From positions 1 to 43,297 of the forward strand of contig QKED01000074.1 of the NCBI GenBank assembly GCA_003252455.1: a DNA stretch of 43,297 nucleotides, written 5' to 3'. The notes below the pieces were generated by a model. It was not told where the DNA came from and searched no databases. It worked only from the letters and a program-made list of their open reading frames with translations. Of the stretch, positions 3,939 through 14,809 are shown piece after piece. Source of the stretch: Gammaproteobacteria bacterium (GTDB lineage Bacteria > Pseudomonadota > Gammaproteobacteria > Thiohalomonadales > Thiohalomonadaceae). A program made the position numbers and the translations under genes. Positions within the stretch are counted from its first letter, which is position 1; each line of letters starts with the position of its first letter.

Positions 3939-5096
3939 TCAGCCCCGGGCCTGACGTGGTACCACGATGCGGCTCGGCGAGAGGGACGAGCCGTAGTTGA
4001 GGGCGAGGTAGATCTTGGCGTCGAGCGCCATACTGGCGGCGCTCAGGGCGGCGGGAATGGGCCTTCCGGGCTGGTGTTGTGGTAGTCCATGGGCGGGGGC
4101 CTGATAGCTGAGCTTGACGTGGTTGATGGCCCGCATCAGGTAACCGCTGCGCGGGTCGAGCAGCGGCGGCCAGGCGTCGCCGATAAGTGCGGGGGTGAGG
4201 CGCCCCGGCCAGGCGAGCGCCGCCTCGATCTGCTCGGGGGTGCTGAGGCCGAGGGGCGCCAGGTGCTGGAGCAGGCGCCGCCAGGCGCTGGGGGTGTCGA
4301 GGTGGACCTCGAACCCGAGGCGCGGGCCGATCGATTCACCCACATCCAGGTGGAGCACAACGTGTTGGTCGTGGTCGAGCAACAGGTCGCAGAGTCCGAC
4401 CACAGGCTCCAGCGCATGGGGCCAGGCGACCTTGTCCAGGAAGGCGGTCAATTCGCTGATGGGCATGCGGGTGAGGGTGAGGCGGCAGCCACGCTGTTCA
4501 CGTGCGAGCATCAGGCCGAGGTAGCGCAGATGGGTCGGCGCGGGCATGGTGCGGATCACCTGTTCGATACGCTCCCGAGTGCCGCTCTCCATTGCGGGGT
4601 TGAGCGTGGCGAGGGCGGCGTCGAGCACGGCCAGGGTCGCGTCGTGGCGCGCGGCCACCTTAGGGCCGAGTAGCGGCGGGCGGGCGTAGTGGTCGTGCAG
4701 CTTGAGGAACAGGCTCGGGGTGGGCAGCGCGCTCCCTGGTTCGACCTCCACATCGAACTCCAGCCACCCCTCGGGGATGGCGCGGGCGAGGGGCTGCGCG
4801 GGGTCGCCCCAGGCGCGGGCGAAGGCGCCGATGCGCCGCCAGCCCTCGGTGTCGTCGCCCTGGCGCCAGCTCGGTTCGGCCAGTAGCGCGGCGGCGCCGT
4901 GCGCCAGGGTGAAGCGTGTGGCGAGGTCGACGCGCGCGTCGGGGCGCCTCCCGAGGGGGCACTCCAGGCCCATCCCGGAGAGGGGTGGCAGGCGTTCGGC
5001 GAGTCGGCTCAAGGGGGTGAGCGAGGCCGCGGGCACCAAGGGGGCGAGGGCGGGCAGGTCGAGCGCCGGAAACAGGGTGTGTAGGTTGCTGTGCAT
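3939..5096 (-). CDS. hypothetical protein, last gene of the large-protein operon
   Basis: A 385-residue protein I do not recognise. It has no signal peptide and no clear membrane segment. It looks like an all-soluble alpha/beta protein rich in Leu, Ala and Pro, with a well-formed interior (LEFDVEVEPG, SLFLKLHDHYARP, HVVLHLDVGESIGPRLGFEV). It is the promoter-distal gene of a leftward set with the EEP enzyme, the 1260-residue protein and the LamG/NHLP-like protein. An ATG at 5147 would overlap the upstream stop by 8 nt. I chose ATG 5096 because AGGA sits 8 nt before it, while the 5147 ATG has no good ribosome site. The role is unknown; context suggests it works with the neighbouring structural proteins. 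Confidence 0.75.
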   Translation of the reverse strand: MHSNLHTLFPALDLPALAPLVPAASLTPLSRLAERLPPLSGMGLECPLGRRPDARVDLATRFTLAHGAAALLAEPSWRQGDDTEGWRRIGAFARAWGDPAQPLARAIPEGWLEFDVEVEPGSALPTPSLFLKLHDHYARPPLLGPKVAARHDATLAVLDAALATLNPAMESGTRERIEQVIRTMPAPTHLRYLGLMLAREQRGCRLTLTRMPISELTAFLDKVAWPHALEPVVGLCDLLLDHDQHVVLHLDVGESIGPRLGFEVHLDTPSAWRRLLQHLAPLGLSTPEQIEAALAWPGRLTPALIGDAWPPLLDPRSGYLMRAINHVKLSYQAPAHGLPQHQPGRPIPAALSAASMALDAKIYLALNYGSSLSPSRIVVPRQARG

Positions 5097-5139
5097 CGCG
5101 AGTGTCCTGATACGTCCGTGGGGCATGGTGCGAAGGGGG

Positions 5140-7659
5140 TCATGCATCCAGATCGGGGTAGCCCGAGACCCAGAATACCCCGTCGAGCTGGGCGTTACGC
5201 TGATTCCCCGAGTGGTCGTAGAGCGTGGTGCCGTTGCCTTCGAGCATGGGGAACCAGAGGCTCAGATCACTCTGGGGGGTCGGGGTTGTGCTGCGATCCG
5301 TGAGGAAGTCGCTCTTGAGCCGTTCGCTGTCGAGGGCGCTACGCCAGAGGCGCACGTCGTAGAGCAGGCCCTGGAACGGCTGTTGCCCCTCGCTCGGTGT
5401 CGCGCTGACGCCCATGCAGAGGGTGGTGGCGGCCACGCCGAGGGCGCCGCTGGCGGCCTGCCCCGCGTTGAGGACCAGGTCGTTGAGGTAGAGCTTGAGA
5501 CCGGCGCCCCCCTCGCTGCCGTCGTAGACACCGGCCAGGTAGTACCAGACGCCGGGCTTGAGGCGCAGGCGACTGTTGCTCGGGGTGACGGTGTGCAGGG
5601 TGCCGTCGAGCAGGATGCTGAATTGGGGCACGGCGCCCCCCACGCGCAGCTCCCAACCACCGCTGCTGCCGAGGGTGGAGAGCAGCACGGCGTCGCCACT
5701 GGTGTGGTAGTCGGGGCAGCGGAACCAGGTCTCGACGGTGAGGCTCTCGCTGTCGCTCAGGCCGCTGTCGTTGGCGAGGGTGACGCGGGGCGTCGCGCTG
5801 TGCTGGAAGTCGAGCACATAGGGGGGCGAGAAGATGGCGTCGAACGGGCGGAAGGGGAGGACGATGTAGACCTCGTCGCTGCCCTGAACGAGGGCGCGCA
5901 GACCCACGCCCGCTGGGAAGCGGTAGTTGAGTTGGTCCTGCAGGGCGGAGAGGGGGTCGTCACTGAAGGCCTGATAGAACGCCGGGTCGGTGTAGAGGCG
6001 GTAGTCGATCTGGGTGTGAAAGGCGATGCGGTTGCGCAGCGCCGGGGGCGCGGCGTAGATGATCGCCAGGTGGGTGGTGGTGTCGTCGAGGCTGTCGAGC
6101 CCGGCACTGATCTGGGCCAGGCCGCGCTGGACCTCCGGTAGGTCGGTGTTGAACGCGGGGCTCACCACATCGGACTGCTGGTCGGGCAGGCGCCCGTCGG
6201 TGTGTAGTTCACCGGGTGGCAGCAGGGGGTCGACGACCCAGTTTTCGTTCGAGGTATAGGCCATGTGTTCGGCGCTGGGGACCACGTAGTAGAGCAGGCC
6301 GGAGAGGCCGCTCTGCAGGTGTTCGCCGCTCTCGCAGACCACGTGGATGGTCAGTCCGGCGGGGGGCGGATTACCGAACAGTTCGGCCAGCGCGGCGTGA
6401 GGGTCGTCGATGAGTCGAGCACGCCACTCGGCGTCGTTGATCGCACGGTTGACGATGATGCGCTGCAGTTCGGCCAGGGGTACGGCGTCGGGCAGGTTTT
6501 GCGCCACCATCGACGGGGAGGAGGGGGCGCTGACCACGTCGAGGGTCGGGCTGGTGGCGAGGGTTTGACTGCCACCCAGCAGATAGGCGAAGGCGTAGTG
6601 ACCCACGCCGGGGGCGGTGAACTCCGCCCGCCCCGTGGCGGCCCCTTGGGTCGGGACCTGGGCGAGGGGCTCGGCGTCGGGGTCGCTCAGGTCGTACAGG
6701 GCAATCTGATCGCCCGCCAGGCAGGTGTCGCTGCTCCAGGTGACCAGCACGCGGTCCGCTGGGGTGACCTCGGTCGGGTCGGGCGCGAGGGTGACCTGAG
6801 GCGTTTGGTCCGACACCAGCAGGTCGAGGGTGGCGAGGATCGCGCCGCTGCCGGTCTGGTAGGTGATGACGAAGGTGCCCTCGACGAAGGGGGGAGAGAA
6901 GTGCGCATCACCCTGGGTGCTGCCGTGGGTCGCGATGCTGGCGGAGCCGTTGTAGGGGGTGCCGGGCGCGGGGTTACAGTAGATGCGGTCGTCGCTGTGA
7001 GGCGTGGTGGTGGTGTAGGTGACATCCAGGGTGTGGCCCGTGGTCGGGTAGAGCCACTGGACGGCAGACAATTGGGTCACCGCCTGCGGGGTGACGCTGA
7101 AGCTCGCGGAGATGGCGCAGACGGTGGTCCCGAAGAGCAGATAACGGAACTCGTACTCGCCCGCGGTGTTGGGTGCCGTGAAGTTCAGGACGGCGTGTGG
7201 GTCCTGTGGGTTGATGGTGAGGGTCTGGAGCGACGCGCTGGCGTCGGCGCCGCAGGCAAACAGGCCGATGGCGTCCTGGTTGCTGATGGCGTCGCTGTCG
7301 AAGGTGCAGTGGATGGTGCTGCCCGCGACCACGGGCGAGGCGGGCGGAGAAAAGCTGACGTTGGGCTGGAGTAAGACCTGCTGTGGGTCCTGCCCCATGA
7401 GGGCCTGGCCCGAGTAGTAACAGACCTGATAGTAGCCGGGGTTGGCGGTCGTGATGATGCCCCGGGAACCCGTAGTGGCCCCTTGGGTGGTGATTTGACA
7501 CGAGGCGGGGGAGCTGGTGCTGTCGCCCCCCGCGTGGTAGAGCCCGACCACATCGTAGCTCTGGGTCGCGCCTATCGGGGCGCTCCAGGAGAGTACGGCA
7601 CTCTGCTGGTAGCGCAGTAGGTAGCTGGAGATGGAGACGCTGTAGTTGGGGTCGCTCAT
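5140..7659 (-). CDS. multidomain protein: Ig-like repeats, two NHLP-leader-like modules, C-terminal LamG-like domain
   Basis: An 839-residue protein without a signal peptide. Residues 1-377 hold four beta-sandwich repeats of about 95 residues; three carry a D.IgLY/F-type strand, and all have a later GxYxxxY-type strand (GYYQVCYYSG, GEYEFRYLLFG, GTFVITYQTG, GHYAFAYLLGG). Residues about 394-463 read like a nitrile-hydratase-type leader (NHLP): AELQRIIVNRAINDAEW, then DDPHAALAELFGN, then PAGLTIHVV and LLYYVVP. Residues about 535-603 look like a second copy (DPAFYQAFSDDPLSAL, PAGVGLRALV, EVYIVLP). Residues about 614-839 form a concanavalin/LamG-type lectin fold (SLTVETWFR, VWYYLAGVYDG, LYDVRLWRSALDSE, DHSGNQRNAQLDG). 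The gene follows the 1260-residue gene by 23 bp with GGGAG before the ATG. Domain calls are by pattern. Function is unknown; a display, adhesion or assembly role is inference. Confidence 0.82.
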   Translation of the reverse strand: MSDPNYSVSISSYLLRYQQSAVLSWSAPIGATQSYDVVGLYHAGGDSTSSPASCQITTQGATTGSRGIITTANPGYYQVCYYSGQALMGQDPQQVLLQPNVSFSPPASPVVAGSTIHCTFDSDAISNQDAIGLFACGADASASLQTLTINPQDPHAVLNFTAPNTAGEYEFRYLLFGTTVCAISASFSVTPQAVTQLSAVQWLYPTTGHTLDVTYTTTTPHSDDRIYCNPAPGTPYNGSASIATHGSTQGDAHFSPPFVEGTFVITYQTGSGAILATLDLLVSDQTPQVTLAPDPTEVTPADRVLVTWSSDTCLAGDQIALYDLSDPDAEPLAQVPTQGAATGRAEFTAPGVGHYAFAYLLGGSQTLATSPTLDVVSAPSSPSMVAQNLPDAVPLAELQRIIVNRAINDAEWRARLIDDPHAALAELFGNPPPAGLTIHVVCESGEHLQSGLSGLLYYVVPSAEHMAYTSNENWVVDPLLPPGELHTDGRLPDQQSDVVSPAFNTDLPEVQRGLAQISAGLDSLDDTTTHLAIIYAAPPALRNRIAFHTQIDYRLYTDPAFYQAFSDDPLSALQDQLNYRFPAGVGLRALVQGSDEVYIVLPFRPFDAIFSPPYVLDFQHSATPRVTLANDSGLSDSESLTVETWFRCPDYHTSGDAVLLSTLGSSGGWELRVGGAVPQFSILLDGTLHTVTPSNSRLRLKPGVWYYLAGVYDGSEGGAGLKLYLNDLVLNAGQAASGALGVAATTLCMGVSATPSEGQQPFQGLLYDVRLWRSALDSERLKSDFLTDRSTTPTPQSDLSLWFPMLEGNGTTLYDHSGNQRNAQLDGVFWVSGYPDLDA

Positions 7660-7682
7660 GGTGTGGCTCGCTCCCGCATGGG

Positions 7683-10600
7683 TTACCAGTGTTTGGGGTT
7701 GGCGTAGTAGACCACCGTGCTACCCGCCGAGTAGGCCCAGCCGAAGACCGTGGCCATGGCGTCTTCGATCTCGTTGACCAGGTAGCCCGCGCCCTGCAGG
7801 GCGTCGTGGACCAGGTCGTCGGCGATCTTCCAGGCGTGTTTGAAGAAGCTGGCCACCTCCTCGGCGGTGTAGCCGAAGACGTTTTTCAACACCGTGGCAA
7901 TCTCATCCAGCCCGTAGCCCACATCGCGCAGGATATCGGCCACATCCTCTGCGCCGAGTTCGAACACCTCGGCAATGGCCAGGGCCACCGACTCGACGTC
8001 GTAAGCGGCATCACGCAGGGCACGGGTGAGGGTGTGTATGCCGGAGTGGTAGGCGTCTTCGACCATGCTGGCGATGTCGACGACGCCCCAGTGCATGACG
8101 TGTGCGACGCCCTTGAGCAGGCCGATGGCATCGGTGAGTGTGGTGTGCAGCTCGTGGTAGAGGATCTTGGCGATCTCTGTGGTGAGGGTGATGATGCCGC
8201 TCGACACAAGGGAGAAGAGCGCCGAGGCGTCCTGCAGTATCGGCGCGGCGAGCTCCCAGAGCTGGCTGGCAAGGCTCTCTGCGTAGTGCTCGACCAGGTC
8301 GGCGAAGGTGTCGAGCGAGGTGTGCAGGGTGTGCCGGTTGAGATTCAACCGCATGCCGAGGAAGGAGAACGAGGCGCCGTACTGGAGGCTGAAGCGGGTC
8401 GCGGGGCCGAGGTCGAGGGTGAAGTCCGCGTCGAGATAGAGATCCAGATTGAGACTGCCCAGTGAGCGGCCTCCACGGGTGATGAGTGGGCCGATGTCAC
8501 CCACGGTGAAGTGGGCCGAGGCGTCGGTGGTGAACTGGTTTTGGTCGATCAGCGTGGCCTCGAACGTCACCGTGCCGAGGTGCTCGATGCGATAATCGAA
8601 GTAGAATTCGAAGGCGTCGCTCGCGACCGTCGCCAAGATGGTCAACGACTCGATCTCGTAGAGCGTCAGGCGCGCGGAGAACGCGAGGTTGGGCGAGCTG
8701 GCGGTATCGATGGTGAAGTAGGGGCCCTCGTGGGTGTTGGTGGCACCGGTCAGGGTCAGCAGATTGCCGATGTTGAGCGGCTGGCTGAGCGAGCCGCTGG
8801 CGGAGATGCCGGTGTGGTAATCGACCTGAATGGCGAAGGCGCAGACCTGACCGTAAAAGGCCAATGTGGAGCGGAAGGCGAGACCGGCACTGTAGAATTT
8901 GTTGTCCGCCGGGTTGCGCCAGCCGAGCGGGTTGGCGACGACGATCAGCTCGAAACCACGCATCTCGATGCCGTTGAGCACCGCAGGGACCGAGGCGCGG
9001 GTGAAGGTCTGGATCAGGGCGGCGAGTGCGAGGGTGCCCAGCTCCTCCACCAGCAGCACGTCGGGCAGCTCCTCGTCGACGTTGAACTCGGTCCCCGCCG
9101 CGACGACCACCTGCGAGGGGCCGGAACCGATGGTGATCTCGCCGGCGAGGCTGAAGGCGACCTCCGGGCCGACGGTGAACTCGATGCCCATGTTGTCGAT
9201 GGTCAGGCCGCGAATGCCGAAGGGGTGCACCCAAGGGGTCTCGGTGCGCAGGGCGAAATTCACCTCCTCGCCCTCCAGGGCGATGTCGCCCCCTAGGGTG
9301 AGGCTGGAGCCGAAAAGGTTGAAGGTGGCCGACATGTGCATGTCGATGTAGAGATTGAGCGGCTGGAGGGTGAGGGCGATGTCGTTGAGGATCACGGCAT
9401 CGTCGATCAGGTGGTAGGCACCATCCAGTGCGGCGATGAGGGTGGTCTGGCTGTAGTCGACCGGGATGCGTGCGGTGAGGTCGAGGTAGCTGCTGCCACC
9501 GAGTAGCCAGGCGACGGTATCCAGCGCGCCGCCCTGGAGCAGTAGGTCGCCATGCAGCTGCATCCCGGCGCTCACGCCGTTCGGCGCGCTGGGCAGTTGC
9601 GCCGGGAAGCTGTAGGCCTCGCTGGCGATGGCGCGGAACTGGAAGTTGGGGTCATCCACCGTGGCGATGATCAGCGAGAGGTTGGTGAACTGCAGCCAGT
9701 CCAGCGGGGCGAAGAGGGTGGAGAGGTCGGCGAGGGACCAGGTCTGAGGCAGGACGAAGCCCATGGCGAAGCCGGTGCCACCGCTGCCGCTGAGGAACTC
9801 GATCTCGAAGTCGCCCCAGTCGCTCCCGGCGTAGCTGAGTTGGGTACCCGCGGCCAGGTAGAGGGTGCCGCTGCGGCCGTTCTCCTCGATGAACAGCGCG
9901 GTACGCTCCAGGGTGAAGGGGGGCAGGCTGTAGTCGAGGCTATCGGCGCTGAGCAGCCCGATGAGGGTGTCGAGGGCGATGCTCGGCAGCTCGCCGGTGA
10001 TCTGGAGATCCCCCGGTAAATTCCACAGCACTTCGAGCTCGATCGCGTCGTCGCCACTCCCGAGGGTGAGGACGCCGTTGATGCCGACACGGGTCTCCTC
10101 CGAGGTGGTGTCGATAAAGAAGCCCGCGGCGGCGATGCCGAGTTGGGTGGTGCCGAGGGAGAGGTGCCAGTCGCTGCTCACCGTCGCGGCGATCTGGTAG
10201 CTGTTGCTGTAGGGCGCGGCGCTGAAGTGCAGTTCGGTCACCGCCAGGCTCGGGGCGTCCGGTAGCGGGCCGACGAACTGCTCGGCCAGCAGGCGCAGGT
10301 CGATACGGCTGTTTTCGAGCAAATCGCCGGTAAAGATGAAGTCGGGGTAGTAGCCGGTCACCGCGATCAGGCCGCCACCGAGGAGTAGCTCGCCCTGCAT
10401 CGCCAGGGCGGTGCCGAGGTCGCCGTCCCAGTCGGTGAGGGCGAAGGCGAGATTGATCTGCTCCACGGTGAGTAGACCCGTGATCAGATCGAAGGGCTGT
10501 GTGGTGGCCACCCCGAGGGAGGTCTTGAGCAGGCGCTGGGTGGATGGATTGACCAGCAGTTCGAGCGTGGTGAGGTTGAGCAGGTTGGGCAGTGTCCAGC

Positions 10601-11465
10601 CCGTCGGTAGCAGATCATCGAGGCTCACGTCGGCGAGCAGTTGGCTGAGGTCGTCGAGCGTGGAGCCGATCGGGTTGTCGATGGCGGCCCTGAACAGCAG
10701 TTGTGCGTCGCCGTCGTAGTAGCGTGCCTCGATGGGGAGGCGCAGCCCCTGGTCTTGGGTGGCGTAGGTGAGTTCGGTACTCAGTGCGGCGTAGGTGACG
10801 GCGAAGGGGGGGGCGGCGGTCGCGGGGGCCGGTGTGAGCGCGTCGCTGCACAGGTCGAGGCGGATCGGTAGGCTGAAATTCCCCAGGGCGATGGGCGCGC
10901 CGAGGGGGGCGCCGAGGGTCATCTGCGGGGCATCGCCGACCAGGCCGATGGCCCCGCTCAGGGGCAGCGTGCTGTCACCGGCCAGCAGCCAGCCGAGCAG
11001 CGCCCAGGCGCCACTCAGTGCGAGGTTGCCGGTATAGCTGAGGCCGGCCGGGTGGCCCGCCTCGTCGTCCGCCGCGGAGTTGAAGAAGAGTCGCGCACCC
11101 GCCCCCTCGACCTGGGTGGTGAAGAGGGTGTCGTCGATCATCGGGAAGGAGACACCCAGCGACCACGCCTCACCGGGTGAGTCGAGGTTGGCGAAGAGCT
11201 GCGCGCATTGCGCCTCGTCGAGCGCAAAGGTGGCGGTGATGGACAGGGTATCGAACGGCGCGTTGGCCACGCGTCCGGTGAGGGTGACGACGTCGCCCCC
11301 TGTGGGGGCGTCGAGCTTGGCGTCGTTCACCACCAGTGTCTGGTCGGCGAGGTAGGTATCGAACAGCGCGGTGATGGCGGGGCTGTCGAGGGCGCTGTCG
11401 GTCAGCGTCAGGGTGCCGTTGACGATGTTCGAATTGAGCGTGTCGAAGAGTTCCTGGAGGGTCAT
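7683..11465 (-). CDS. giant beta-rich protein with C-terminal helical repeats, possibly DUF6603-like
   Basis: A 1260-residue protein with no signal peptide. For roughly 1090 residues it consists of alternating short beta-strands and occasional helices with recurring phrases such as LSLGTTQLGIAAAGFFID, LTLGGDIALEGEEVNFAL and HPFGIRGLTIDNMGIEF. This suggests a long repetitive beta-sheet structure. From about residue 1095 it changes to an amphipathic helical region with repeats of the type VALAIAEVFELGAEDVADIL, DEIATVLKNVFGYTAEEVAS. It ends in a short aromatic tail (YYANPKHW). The style recalls large DUF6603-type proteins, but I cannot confirm this. It is second in the leftward operon, 37 bp after the EEP gene. 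A structural, scaffold or lipid-contacting role is inference. The coding call itself is secure from length and consistent codon pattern. Confidence 0.85.
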   Translation of the reverse strand: MTLQELFDTLNSNIVNGTLTLTDSALDSPAITALFDTYLADQTLVVNDAKLDAPTGGDVVTLTGRVANAPFDTLSITATFALDEAQCAQLFANLDSPGEAWSLGVSFPMIDDTLFTTQVEGAGARLFFNSAADDEAGHPAGLSYTGNLALSGAWALLGWLLAGDSTLPLSGAIGLVGDAPQMTLGAPLGAPIALGNFSLPIRLDLCSDALTPAPATAAPPFAVTYAALSTELTYATQDQGLRLPIEARYYDGDAQLLFRAAIDNPIGSTLDDLSQLLADVSLDDLLPTGWTLPNLLNLTTLELLVNPSTQRLLKTSLGVATTQPFDLITGLLTVEQINLAFALTDWDGDLGTALAMQGELLLGGGLIAVTGYYPDFIFTGDLLENSRIDLRLLAEQFVGPLPDAPSLAVTELHFSAAPYSNSYQIAATVSSDWHLSLGTTQLGIAAAGFFIDTTSEETRVGINGVLTLGSGDDAIELEVLWNLPGDLQITGELPSIALDTLIGLLSADSLDYSLPPFTLERTALFIEENGRSGTLYLAAGTQLSYAGSDWGDFEIEFLSGSGGTGFAMGFVLPQTWSLADLSTLFAPLDWLQFTNLSLIIATVDDPNFQFRAIASEAYSFPAQLPSAPNGVSAGMQLHGDLLLQGGALDTVAWLLGGSSYLDLTARIPVDYSQTTLIAALDGAYHLIDDAVILNDIALTLQPLNLYIDMHMSATFNLFGSSLTLGGDIALEGEEVNFALRTETPWVHPFGIRGLTIDNMGIEFTVGPEVAFSLAGEITIGSGPSQVVVAAGTEFNVDEELPDVLLVEELGTLALAALIQTFTRASVPAVLNGIEMRGFELIVVANPLGWRNPADNKFYSAGLAFRSTLAFYGQVCAFAIQVDYHTGISASGSLSQPLNIGNLLTLTGATNTHEGPYFTIDTASSPNLAFSARLTLYEIESLTILATVASDAFEFYFDYRIEHLGTVTFEATLIDQNQFTTDASAHFTVGDIGPLITRGGRSLGSLNLDLYLDADFTLDLGPATRFSLQYGASFSFLGMRLNLNRHTLHTSLDTFADLVEHYAESLASQLWELAAPILQDASALFSLVSSGIITLTTEIAKILYHELHTTLTDAIGLLKGVAHVMHWGVVDIASMVEDAYHSGIHTLTRALRDAAYDVESVALAIAEVFELGAEDVADILRDVGYGLDEIATVLKNVFGYTAEEVASFFKHAWKIADDLVHDALQGAGYLVNEIEDAMATVFGWAYSAGSTVVYYANPKHW

Positions 11466-11502
11466 GCTGGTTACTTCCCCTGTGCACTACCTGAATTTGG
11501 GC

Positions 11503-12540
11503 TCAAAAGGTGTAGCTGGCGTAGACCGGCAGGTGATCGCTGATCGCCTCGGAGTAGACGTGCCAGGCATCCTCGTTGTTATTCAGCGGGTTGCTGGTAA
11601 TGGCCGTGCCGTTTTTGATGGCGGTCGGGTCGAAGGCGGCGCCGCAGAGCGCGAGTTGTGGGCAGGGGTGGTTTGGCTGGACCTGTAGGTAGCTCAGCAG
11701 GTCGACCACCTGGGCGGCGTTCTCGCGCCCGGTGTTCGGTAGCTTGGCGAAGATGTTGTCGAAGGCGTTGACACGATAGTCGAGGGTGCTGGCATACCCC
11801 CCGGACTGGGTGTTCTTCTTGATCGTGCTGAGTGCGACGCGTGGGTCGGCTTGGCGCGAGGGGGGCAAGATGGCGGTATAGCCCAGGTTCATGGCGCCGT
11901 TGTAGGCGCTGCTGTCGGAGTTGACGTTGAAGTCGCCACCGATAAGGCAGGCCGTCAGGGCGTGGTCGGTGATGTACGTGGGCTGGTTGTTCGGCGGGAA
12001 GACGGTCTCGTGGAAGAGCGTGACCGCATCGCTGGAAGGGATGTTCTCGATGCCGAGTGCGCAGAAGAGGGAGCCCGGCCCAGGGGCGTGGTAGAGGATG
12101 ACGCTGAAGTATTTTGTCGTGTTGTTGTCTGTGTACTGAAAAAAGTAGGCCCCGGGCAGGCGCCCACCGCGACGGGTGTTGGTCGAGGGGAATTCGAGCC
12201 GATTGCCGTTGGCGTCTTCGTCGGTGGTGTAGGCATCGCAGAAGGTGAAGCCGAGGTCGGTGCGAAAGACCAGCAGATAGCAGTCGTTCTGTGAGGTCGT
12301 CAGACTACGCATACCCCACTGTGAGCCGGGCAGGCGGGTCTTCAAGTTGTCGACCAGATTGTAGGCCAATGCGTAGGCGAAGCCGGAGTCGATCACCTCC
12401 AGCATGCCGATGACCGAGGTATTGGTGCAGACGACGGTGGCGGCGATGGTATCGAGTGCCCGGTAGCCGTTGGTGCTGAGTAGGCGCTTCTGCGAGAAGA
12501 TCTTCAGATTCCAGAGCAGGAAATTGACCGTGATAGCCAC
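11503..12540 (-). CDS. endonuclease/exonuclease/phosphatase (EEP) family protein
   Basis: A 345-residue EEP-superfamily enzyme. All expected metal and catalytic positions are present: WNLK (Asn11), GMLEVID (Glu48), LYHAP (His151), GGDFNVNSD (Asp203/Asn205) and SDHLPV (Asp335/His336). The fold is therefore probably active as a Mg-dependent phosphodiesterase or phosphatase; the substrate could be a nucleic acid or a phospholipid or phosphoinositide. The start is GTG at 12540, with a perfect AAGGAGG 5 nt upstream; longer readings of the frame lack the family N-terminus. It has no signal peptide and is moderately Cys-rich. It is the first gene of the operon that continues with the 1260-residue and LamG/NHLP-like proteins, so it is probably the enzymatic part of that system. 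Confidence 0.88.
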   Translation of the reverse strand: MAITVNFLLWNLKIFSQKRLLSTNGYRALDTIAATVVCTNTSVIGMLEVIDSGFAYALAYNLVDNLKTRLPGSQWGMRSLTTSQNDCYLLVFRTDLGFTFCDAYTTDEDANGNRLEFPSTNTRRGGRLPGAYFFQYTDNNTTKYFSVILYHAPGPGSLFCALGIENIPSSDAVTLFHETVFPPNNQPTYITDHALTACLIGGDFNVNSDSSAYNGAMNLGYTAILPPSRQADPRVALSTIKKNTQSGGYASTLDYRVNAFDNIFAKLPNTGRENAAQVVDLLSYLQVQPNHPCPQLALCGAAFDPTAIKNGTAITSNPLNNNEDAWHVYSEAISDHLPVYASYTF

Positions 12541-12908: not shown

Positions 12909-14411
12909 TCACCAACGCCAGATCTCCGGTGTGGTGCCCTTGACCTTCTGCGCCTCGGGTTTGTCGTACCAGCGCAGGTGGGTGCTGCGCCCGCTCTGTA
13001 CGAAGGTGATGAACTCGGGATAGGCGTCACCCAGGTCGGTGCGCTCCACCGGCACCTGCCAGCTGTCCGGCACCACCAGGGCGAAGGGGTAGTGGGCGCT
13101 GTCGCTGAAGTCGTCGAGGCCGTCGAGTCGGTTGCGGCTGTAGGGCAGCACCGGGGTGTAGCCGGGCAGGTGGATCTCGTAGCCGCTGTCGTGCACGTAG
13201 AGGTAGGGGTCGAAGGGGGCGCCTGGGAGCATCGCCAGGGGCAAGGGGACGTCGAGGTCGAGCTTGAAGCTGAAGCGCGGGCCGGCGATGACGCCCTGTG
13301 CCGCCAGCGTGTTGACCACATCGTCCACCGGGTCGCGCCAGAGGTGGCGCGTCTGTTCGAACAGCAGCAGGTCGACGGCACCGACGCCCTGCACGTCACG
13401 CGGGTAGCCGCTGATGTCGCCGGTCTGGCCGCGACGCTGCAGGTTGATGCTGCCGCGGGTGACGCTCCCCTCCGGGAGGTCGATGCGCAGGTGCCAGTCG
13501 TGGTTGTAGCTGGCGCCGCGCGCCATCAGATAGCCCTCGCCGGAGAGGGCGACCACGTCGCCGTTGTTGTCCAGGTGCATGGCCACCCGGTAGCCCACCA
13601 CCAGGTCGTTGAAGTCGTAGTCGGCGCGCTCCGGGTAGCGGTCTTCGTAGGCGGCCACGTAGTAGCTGCCGTGGGCGGGGAGGTAGACGAGCCCGCTGCT
13701 GTCGCCCCCCGCGAGGGTCCCGTCGAGCACCAGCGGTGCCTCGGCACTGCCGGCGGCGAGCTGGTCCAGGTAGGCGGCATCCTCGGCGGTGACGAGGGCC
13801 ACGTCTTCGGGGCCGTTGGAGTAGTCGTAGAACGCCTCCGGGTCGCCGAGCTTGCCGTTGGTGTCGAGAAAGCGTACGCGCAGGCGGGCGGCGCTGGCGC
13901 GTGTCAGGGCGATGTCGACGGGCACACTGAGGGTGGCGTCGAAGGAGCTGGCGTTGATGTCGGAGTCGTTGGCCGCGGTGATGCGCGCCGAGCCGGTGTC
14001 GCCGAGCAGGGTGTAGTGCGGGGTGCGTTCTGTGCTGCCAGTGGCCGCCACCAGGGTGGTGGTACGGGTGGAGAAGTCGCTGTAGAGGTGCTCGACGCCG
14101 TCGATGGTCACCACCAGTTCGACGCTGGCGATGGCGATGCCCTGGCAGGAGGCCTTTTCGGTGCCGCTGGCCGCCTCGTTCACATCCACGGCGAACACCA
14201 GACTGCCGCCATGCCCCTGGCGGAATTGCTCCAGGGTCGGGCCATCGATCACCCTGCTGTGGTCGAAGGGGGCGAACAGGTCCAGGTCACCGTAGCCGTT
14301 GGCGGCAATGACGTCATCGAGGCGGGTGGAGAGGAGGGCCTGGGCCGATGTGGCGCCGAGCAGGGCGCACAGGACGAGCATGACGTGGGGGGTGAGGTGG
14401 CGATGGCTCAT
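12909..14411 (-). CDS. LruC domain-containing exported protein
   Basis: A 500-residue protein with an N-terminal signal peptide (MLVLCALLGATSAQA, likely cut after about residue 25). The hallmark of the LruC domain is the acidic metal-binding-like motif DYDFNDLVVGYR at about residues 264-275. It is followed by SYNHDWHLRIDLPEG and, far downstream, TPEIWRW at the C-terminus. LruC proteins are surface or secreted proteins of Gram-negative bacteria, often Ca-binding-like and often paired with lipoproteins. The start overlaps the stop of the upstream lipoprotein gene by 4 nt (ATGA), so translation is probably coupled and the two products likely act together in the envelope. The molecular function of the family is not established. 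Confidence 0.85.
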   Translation of the reverse strand: MSHRHLTPHVMLVLCALLGATSAQALLSTRLDDVIAANGYGDLDLFAPFDHSRVIDGPTLEQFRQGHGGSLVFAVDVNEAASGTEKASCQGIAIASVELVVTIDGVEHLYSDFSTRTTTLVAATGSTERTPHYTLLGDTGSARITAANDSDINASSFDATLSVPVDIALTRASAARLRVRFLDTNGKLGDPEAFYDYSNGPEDVALVTAEDAAYLDQLAAGSAEAPLVLDGTLAGGDSSGLVYLPAHGSYYVAAYEDRYPERADYDFNDLVVGYRVAMHLDNNGDVVALSGEGYLMARGASYNHDWHLRIDLPEGSVTRGSINLQRRGQTGDISGYPRDVQGVGAVDLLLFEQTRHLWRDPVDDVVNTLAAQGVIAGPRFSFKLDLDVPLPLAMLPGAPFDPYLYVHDSGYEIHLPGYTPVLPYSRNRLDGLDDFSDSAHYPFALVVPDSWQVPVERTDLGDAYPEFITFVQSGRSTHLRWYDKPEAQKVKGTTPEIWRW

Positions 14412-14809
14412 AGGGCGATCTCCCCCCGCTGGGGCGGGTCGGCGGGGTTCTCGGTGAACAGCTCGTAGTCGAGCCGGGTGTCGTCGAGACGCGTATCCAC
14501 GGTGAGGGTGAAGGGGCGGTTGCGTTCGACCTCGCCGAGGTAGAGGGTCGCCCCGTCGCCCCGGCTCAGTTTGAGAAAGCAGCGCTGGCCGAGGGTGGCG
14601 TAGCCGCTGGGGTCGAGGGTGACGCGTTGCTGGGTGAAGTTATCGAAGCTCACCCCGGTGCGCAGGGGGTTGTCTGCCAGACGGGTGGAGCGGGGGGCGC
14701 TGGCGCTGGGCGGGGCGTCGCCCGCCCCGCCGCCGCAGCCCACGAGGGCGAACAGCAGCGGGACGAGTCGTAGCGTGAGCCGCCGCGCGTGGGGTGGGTG
14801 TTGCTGCAT
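14408..14809 (-). CDS. small lipoprotein, partner of the LruC protein
   Basis: A 133-residue protein with a type II signal peptide: basic N-region, hydrophobic LRLVPLLFALVGC and lipidated cysteine at residue 25, followed by a flexible GGGAGDAPPSASAP linker. The mature part is a small beta-rich domain (VTLDPSGYATLGQRCFLKLS, LYLGEVERNRPFTLTVD) with no recognised family. AGGGAG sits 8 nt before the ATG. The gene ends inside the start of the LruC gene (4-nt ATGA overlap), so the pair is an operon. It probably sits at the inner face of the outer membrane or on the surface. Confidence 0.82.
   Translation of the reverse strand: MQQHPPHARRLTLRLVPLLFALVGCGGGAGDAPPSASAPRSTRLADNPLRTGVSFDNFTQQRVTLDPSGYATLGQRCFLKLSRGDGATLYLGEVERNRPFTLTVDTRLDDTRLDYELFTENPADPPQRGEIAL

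Follow-up and report, generated by a model that had tools for sequence, protein, structure and literature searches.

The described proteins that come closest to parts of the locus reported here are the DNase I and MnuA nucleases, the DUF6603 giants (PF20248), and the TULIP and P47/OrfX proteins, which the part of PMC6791001 drawn on here presents as lipid-binding proteins. Other parts of the locus recall NHLP proteusin and Nif11 lanthipeptide clusters, and a 2025 paper reports, in the part drawn on here, a leader-dependent ABBA prenyltransferase, MppC, in a Nif11 lanthipeptide cluster (PMC12715784). A limited look at the literature returned no paper on DUF6603, no paper on NHLP (nitrile hydratase leader peptide) with LamG or laminin G and, among the isoprenyl, JHBP, TULIP and cluster papers listed, no title on a cassette of the kind described below.

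The locus lies on a 43,297-nucleotide contig of a gammaproteobacterium (QKED01000074.1, assembly GCA_003252455.1), the whole of which we refer to as the window. A sequence-only reading had picked out four genes for large proteins, head to tail on the minus strand (12540-3939), and their open reading frames were confirmed. The first encodes a 345-aa EEP-fold (DNase I-like) enzyme (12540-11503, minus) with AGGAGGG ahead of its GTG start; the second a giant protein of 1260 aa (11465-7683, minus); the third an 839-aa Ig/NHLP/LamG protein (7659-5140, minus) in which the Ig/SKICH-like repeats are weak; and the fourth a 402-aa protein (5147-3939, minus). The likely start of this last gene is the ATG at 5096, which better matches the start of its relatives. 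With that start the small gaps of the earlier reading measure 37 nt between the EEP and giant genes, 23 nt between the giant and 839-aa genes, and 43 nt before the 402-aa gene, whose first ATG, at 5147, would instead give an 8-nt overlap. This spacing is the one basis on which we infer co-transcription of the four genes; no promoter was matched in the region, and terminator matches were as numerous as expected from shuffles. By hydropathy none of the four proteins has a strongly hydrophobic N-terminus or a membrane helix, in keeping with the earlier view that the large proteins have no signal peptide. That view also held that the set corresponds to no described pathway, and indeed the four proteins match only single domains in Pfam and NCBIfam, with no known system, and none of them has a match in PADLOC, on which ground a known anti-phage defence system was rejected. 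Horizontal transfer is likewise unsupported by composition, as the G+C of the four genes (0.64-0.71) falls inside the range of the window (0.57-0.74). On the same strand, about 370 nt upstream of the four genes, is a gene for an LruC/DUF4842 protein (E 5e-44), adjoined by a gene for a small protein that is lipoprotein-like by eye (window 12909-14809).

The earlier reading took the four genes for one undescribed system and proposed recurrence of the set as its test. The set recurs nowhere that we searched: no second genome with all parts was found in the 398-genome panels, and among 72,556 plasmid records none had matches to two or more proteins of the set. What does recur, in distant bacteria, is the pair formed by the EEP and giant genes, and we regard this as a well-supported recurring cassette. 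At six of six loci of the EEP family (the window, panel genomes G117 and G529, Herpetosiphon, Calothrix, and Azospirillum lipoferum) the EEP gene is followed on the same strand by a giant, with gaps of 10-66 nt, a proportion that is partly a matter of ascertainment because most cassette loci were reached through the giant; the searches that started from an EEP used those of the window, Herpetosiphon, and A. lipoferum and the panel EEP profile.

Searching the plasmid records by tblastn with the giant (E <= 1e-3) matched eight of them, from Priestia, Herpetosiphon, Paenibacillus, Streptantibioticus (two), Hymenobacter, and Deinococcus (two). On the Herpetosiphon plasmid pHAU01 an EEP gene (PF03372, E 2e-8) lies 29 nt upstream of the giant. 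Among 398 genomes, the full giant of G117 is the only strong match (E 1.1e-91, profile A1 built without G117) besides that of G000, the window's own genome, and a further giant, that of G529, was found among the 246 genomes of an order panel, G117 being one of them (E 7e-29, profile A2 built without G529); in both G117 and G529 an EEP of the same family is directly upstream of the giant. The three 398-genome panels are taken as the same draw, as inferred from their identical size and listing. The Herpetosiphon EEP matched only itself and Calothrix sp. NIES-4101 among the 72,556 plasmid records (tblastn, E <= 1e-5), and in this cyanobacterium, which is absent from every profile, a 1494-aa giant lies 63 nt downstream of the EEP gene. 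With the G529 giant as query we reached A. lipoferum 4B, where a gene annotated EEP is followed after 18 nt by a giant of 3380 aa; this EEP is a distant member of the family (19% identity, E 2e-6 to the profile) and matches only itself among the plasmids. The window EEP gave no tblastn match to plasmids. At E <= 1e-5 the EEP family is present in two of the 398 panel genomes, G000 and G117, which are the two with a strong giant match and both of which contributed sequences to the EEP profile.

The flanks fetched around four giants, in Streptantibioticus, Priestia, Paenibacillus, and Hymenobacter, contained no EEP of the family, and therefore six of the ten sizeable-giant loci (these four and the six cassette loci) have one. 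Left out of the counts are weak DUF6603-type matches in G280 and G351 (of which G280 alone was fetched), a partial 402-aa match in G370 (E 8e-4), a partial match in a transporter-like ORF of G643 (E 5e-4), weak NHLP matches in G217 and G171, and Deinococcus proteins that have the helical repeat only. In a set of 95 genomes, that of the window together with its relatives, only the window's genome has the giant; this protein had no match in phages, and scans of genome contigs with the EEP alignment and with the giant gave no confirmed relative. A viral origin was rejected, since neither the giant nor the 402-aa family has a confirmed relative in viral contigs. As the cassette occurs in Pseudomonadota (A. 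lipoferum), Chloroflexota (Herpetosiphon), and Cyanobacteriota (Calothrix), a shared function of EEP and giant is implied, one described by none of the libraries searched, and the cassette offers a concrete handle on a nameless family of giant beta-rich proteins. The Calothrix cassette is preceded by genes for proteins of 775, 329, 282, and 209 aa (L047 4990-9885) whose relatives lie close together on AZO_p5 of A. lipoferum, where they adjoin a gene annotated as of the HBL/NHE enterotoxin family (L051 3082-10886).

Pfam and NCBIfam give no family for the giant itself up to E 1. It had been called beta-rich, and residues 1-1070 do show a beta-type amphipathic periodicity (z 6.5 against shuffles), followed by a C-terminal helical repeat region at about residues 1083-1250 (7716..8219, minus); helical amphipathicity of the last 190 residues has a z of 8.2. 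This architecture is common among the giants tested: the N-terminal part has beta periodicity in seven of seven (z 2.7-6.5), the last 190 residues have helical amphipathicity in six of seven (z 2.3-8.2), the exception being Streptantibioticus, and a strongly hydrophobic N-terminus is seen in none of the seven. Matches of the giant to solved structures are helical bundles at the C-terminal part and nothing else, and the helical repeat region matches Hymenobacter and Deinococcus proteins. The Deinococcus plasmid proteins have the helical repeat without the beta part (L009 10927-12810, L010 11896-12663, L050 6975-9116). Within its first half the giant family has a stretch that aligns with the N-terminal portion of a DUF6603 protein (E 9e-8, hhalign probability 94%). 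A DUF6603 giant stands in a run with genes for an MBL-fold protein, a FabA-like dehydratase, and what by eye is a ketosynthase (L021 2654-13714). AlphaFold2 run on single sequences gave models with a mean pLDDT of 35, too low to read a fold from, both for residues 620-1090 of the giant and for the 402-aa protein.

Genes near several giants bear on what these proteins may handle. In Streptantibioticus, G117, and G529 the giant has a polyprenyl-diphosphate synthase gene no more than about 5 kb away, which makes at least three of the ten sizeable-giant loci; in the window, whose ORFs were for the most part assessed by eye, no such synthase was recognised. The same three loci have in common a neighbour family, A6, two members of which weakly match the lipid-binding family JHBP (E 0.002 and 0.003, below the cut-off). 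The A6 family gave no relevant PDB entry, and by profile the giant resembles neither A6 nor A7, another family of neighbours. We take the polyprenyl synthases and the A6/JHBP neighbours as hints, not proof, of a lipid role. TULIP identity was considered and set aside, both for the giant, which by profile is unlike the TULIP-like proteins encoded beside other giants (a label given by eye in unannotated loci), and for those neighbours, whose JHBP matches are weak and which have none in PDB. The Streptantibioticus A6 gene matches in two overlapping frames, possibly reflecting a frameshift in the record or overlapping genes (L007 9065-10852).

The third and fourth genes of the window have other affinities. 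The 839-aa protein had been read as NHLP-like, which proved correct and double: two stretches, at 6316..6471 and 5845..6024 (both minus), match TIGR03793 with genome E-values of 1.1e-6 and 4.3e-4, each below the curated cut-off, as is the whole protein (E 1.2e-11; 44.3 versus 50.9 bits). They are the only NHLP stretches found in this genome. Both are internal, followed by a linker or by LamG, and in the translation no GG motif is seen by eye directly behind either. The LamG/concanavalin-like domain, also foreseen, spans residues 624-779 (5323..5790, minus) and is over the PF13385 cut-off (64.5 versus 27.6 bits, E 1.6e-17).

Searches of Pfam and NCBIfam up to E 1 assign the 402-aa protein to no family, and its affinities come from its relatives. 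By tblastn these are in Nostoc (E 4e-26), Pseudanabaena (6e-16), and Azospirillum B510 (3e-11); another was found by profile in G428 (E 2e-30), and one in Acaryochloris is split over pieces. All five strong relatives outside the window are in Nif11/NHLP RiPP clusters, four of them with a LanM-type protein. The Nostoc cluster has LanM, with Nif11 and NHLP leaders over the cut-off (a second NHLP being labelled by eye) and a radical-SAM protein below it; in Pseudanabaena, with annotated LanM and Nif11, the 402-aa relative is fused to a 2OG-Fe(II) oxygenase. The Azospirillum B510 cluster has LanM, a YcaO domain, and NHLP leaders over the cut-off, with a TfuA-like protein below; that of G428 a DUF4135/LANC protein, a JmjC protein, and a Nif11 leader below the cut-off; and that of Acaryochloris an annotated Nif11 precursor and RiPP radical SAM methyltransferase. 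Beside the Pseudanabaena relative is a 598-aa protein that matches no Pfam family and has a 41% identical counterpart adjoining the Azospirillum B510 relative (L012 5719-9295, L013 9920-11713).

ABBA prenyltransferases are built of alpha-beta-beta-alpha units with K-x-Y and arginine ligands. The 402-aa family, with its alternating beta pairs, invariant K378-x-Y380, and invariant arginines, recalls this fold when read by eye; searches of Pfam and NCBIfam up to E 1 and of PDB up to E 5 gave no ABBA prenyltransferase match. Homology between the 402-aa protein and the Calothrix 329-aa protein was not detected, so that an ABBA-like nature of both is a by-eye idea.

The tight gene run thus holds two modules, the EEP-giant cassette and the NHLP protein with its 402-aa partner. 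The earlier view of an enzyme, a giant, and a lectin-like protein in one assembly is borne out for the first two as a gene pair, and the 839-aa and 402-aa proteins point instead to NHLP/Nif11 RiPP biology; a large particle formed by these proteins is possible. The explanation we favour, and hold only tentatively, is a signal-less complex that handles a lipid or isoprenoid and uses RiPP-like docking. The giant would be its soluble cytoplasmic scaffold or carrier, the beta-amphipathic body and amphipathic C-terminal helices holding a hydrophobic cargo, for which an isoprenoid or another lipid is the likeliest candidate, and the EEP would act on a phosphodiester or phosphate group of that cargo, or in some species may be retained as a structural partner. 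The 839-aa protein of this genome would contribute an arm that binds glycans (LamG) together with two docking domains of the NHLP fold, and the 402-aa protein would bind these domains as RiPP enzymes bind leaders, modifying or loading the complex without making a RiPP. A more specific version, which we consider unlikely, applies RiPP logic to the giant complex throughout: the NHLP tags would dock a leader-dependent 402-aa enzyme, possibly an ABBA-type prenyltransferase, that lipidates or loads the EEP-giant particle, and in some other species the isoprenoid of the cassette would come from the polyprenyl synthase encoded nearby. If the NHLP pairing is functional, leader-type recognition would be operating on a large protein and not on a peptide antibiotic.

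Two rivals to the lipid-handling complex are serious. One, which is possible and which we hold just as tentatively, is that the two modules are unrelated neighbours, the NHLP protein and 402-aa partner having been left from a RiPP-like locus beside an EEP-giant cassette. The giant and the 402-aa family occur together in the window only, and because the second module is beside a giant here alone it may be an unrelated neighbour; the NHLP region, moreover, has no large multidomain relative in the 398-genome panel. However, the giant and 839-aa genes are 23 nt apart in a run of four genes on one strand, and the NHLP protein is no obvious relic, because it is an intact ORF without a RiPP core. The idea of one four-gene system is partly supported, the link between the cassette and the NHLP pair being seen in this genome alone.

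The other serious rival concerns what the EEP acts upon. The window EEP had been described as active-looking, and it does keep the catalytic positions E48, R127, H151, D203, N205, D261, D335, and H336, all eight of which are invariant in four aligned sequences (the window and three relatives). Its family assignment is below threshold, with 13.8 versus 24.5 bits for Pfam PF03372 (gathering cut-off) and 34.3 versus 185 bits for MnuA NF045851, which is far under the curated cut-off; the Herpetosiphon EEP, at 34.7 bits, is above the PF03372 cut-off of 24.5. Compared with solved structures, the EEP-family profile is best on DNase I (1atn, E 2.6e-5) and then DNase gamma (9.5e-4), with the R-x-P, GDFN, and SDH positions aligned. 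The closeness of the profile to true DNases does not favour a lipid substrate, and the same alignment suits a nuclease system, with a DNase I-type nuclease for the EEP and a giant that carries, scaffolds, or inhibits it, directed against other cells or mobile DNA. Also consistent with such a system are the four of eight giant-matching plasmid records that are typed mobilizable, the TIR-domain and restriction genes annotated near the Priestia giant, and the HBL/NHE-family neighbour of the A. lipoferum relatives of the Calothrix upstream genes. We nevertheless regard it as rather doubtful. In the Calothrix EEP the catalytic Glu, the GDFN Asp, and the Asp-His pair are missing, so that this copy is probably inactive, a likely pseudoenzyme; PADLOC has no match; no secretion signal is seen by hydropathy; and the polyprenyl synthases near three giants are left unexplained. 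The loss of catalytic residues in Calothrix counts against the lipid-handling complex as well.

Weakest is an ordinary RiPP (proteusin) locus with an unusually large precursor, which would suit the two NHLP leader-like domains of the 839-aa protein and the RiPP-cluster setting of the 402-aa relatives but which we consider very unlikely and largely refuted, the NHLP domains being internal in a protein below the curated cut-off with no GG motif directly after either (by eye), and no DUF4135/LanM domain being found at E <= 0.1 in the genome (a draft of 118 contigs, 99.7% complete) by a search in which none of 14 built-in controls rang and which was positive in G428.

The favoured lipid-handling complex can be set against the described systems. 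With NHLP proteusin and Nif11 lanthipeptide clusters, as far as the part of PMC12715784 drawn on here represents them, the window shares an NHLP-fold domain and a protein with relatives in such clusters; in contrast to them, its NHLP domains are internal in a protein of 839 aa, and no core peptide, GG motif, or LanM was found. Relative to the TULIP and P47/OrfX proteins, as presented in the part of PMC6791001 drawn on here, some neighbours of other giants are weakly similar to JHBP, a TULIP family, whereas the giant is unlike those neighbours by profile comparison. The DUF6603 giants (PF20248) share the first-half alignment with the giant family, but the window giant has no DUF6603 domain in Pfam up to E 1, and the one DUF6603 locus viewed lacks an EEP of the family while carrying genes of MBL-fold and FabA-like type. 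With the DNase I and MnuA nucleases the EEP shares the fold family and the catalytic E, R-x-P, H, GDFN, and SDH; it differs from them in having no visible membrane anchor or signal, and in that its family lies upstream of a giant at the six loci found.
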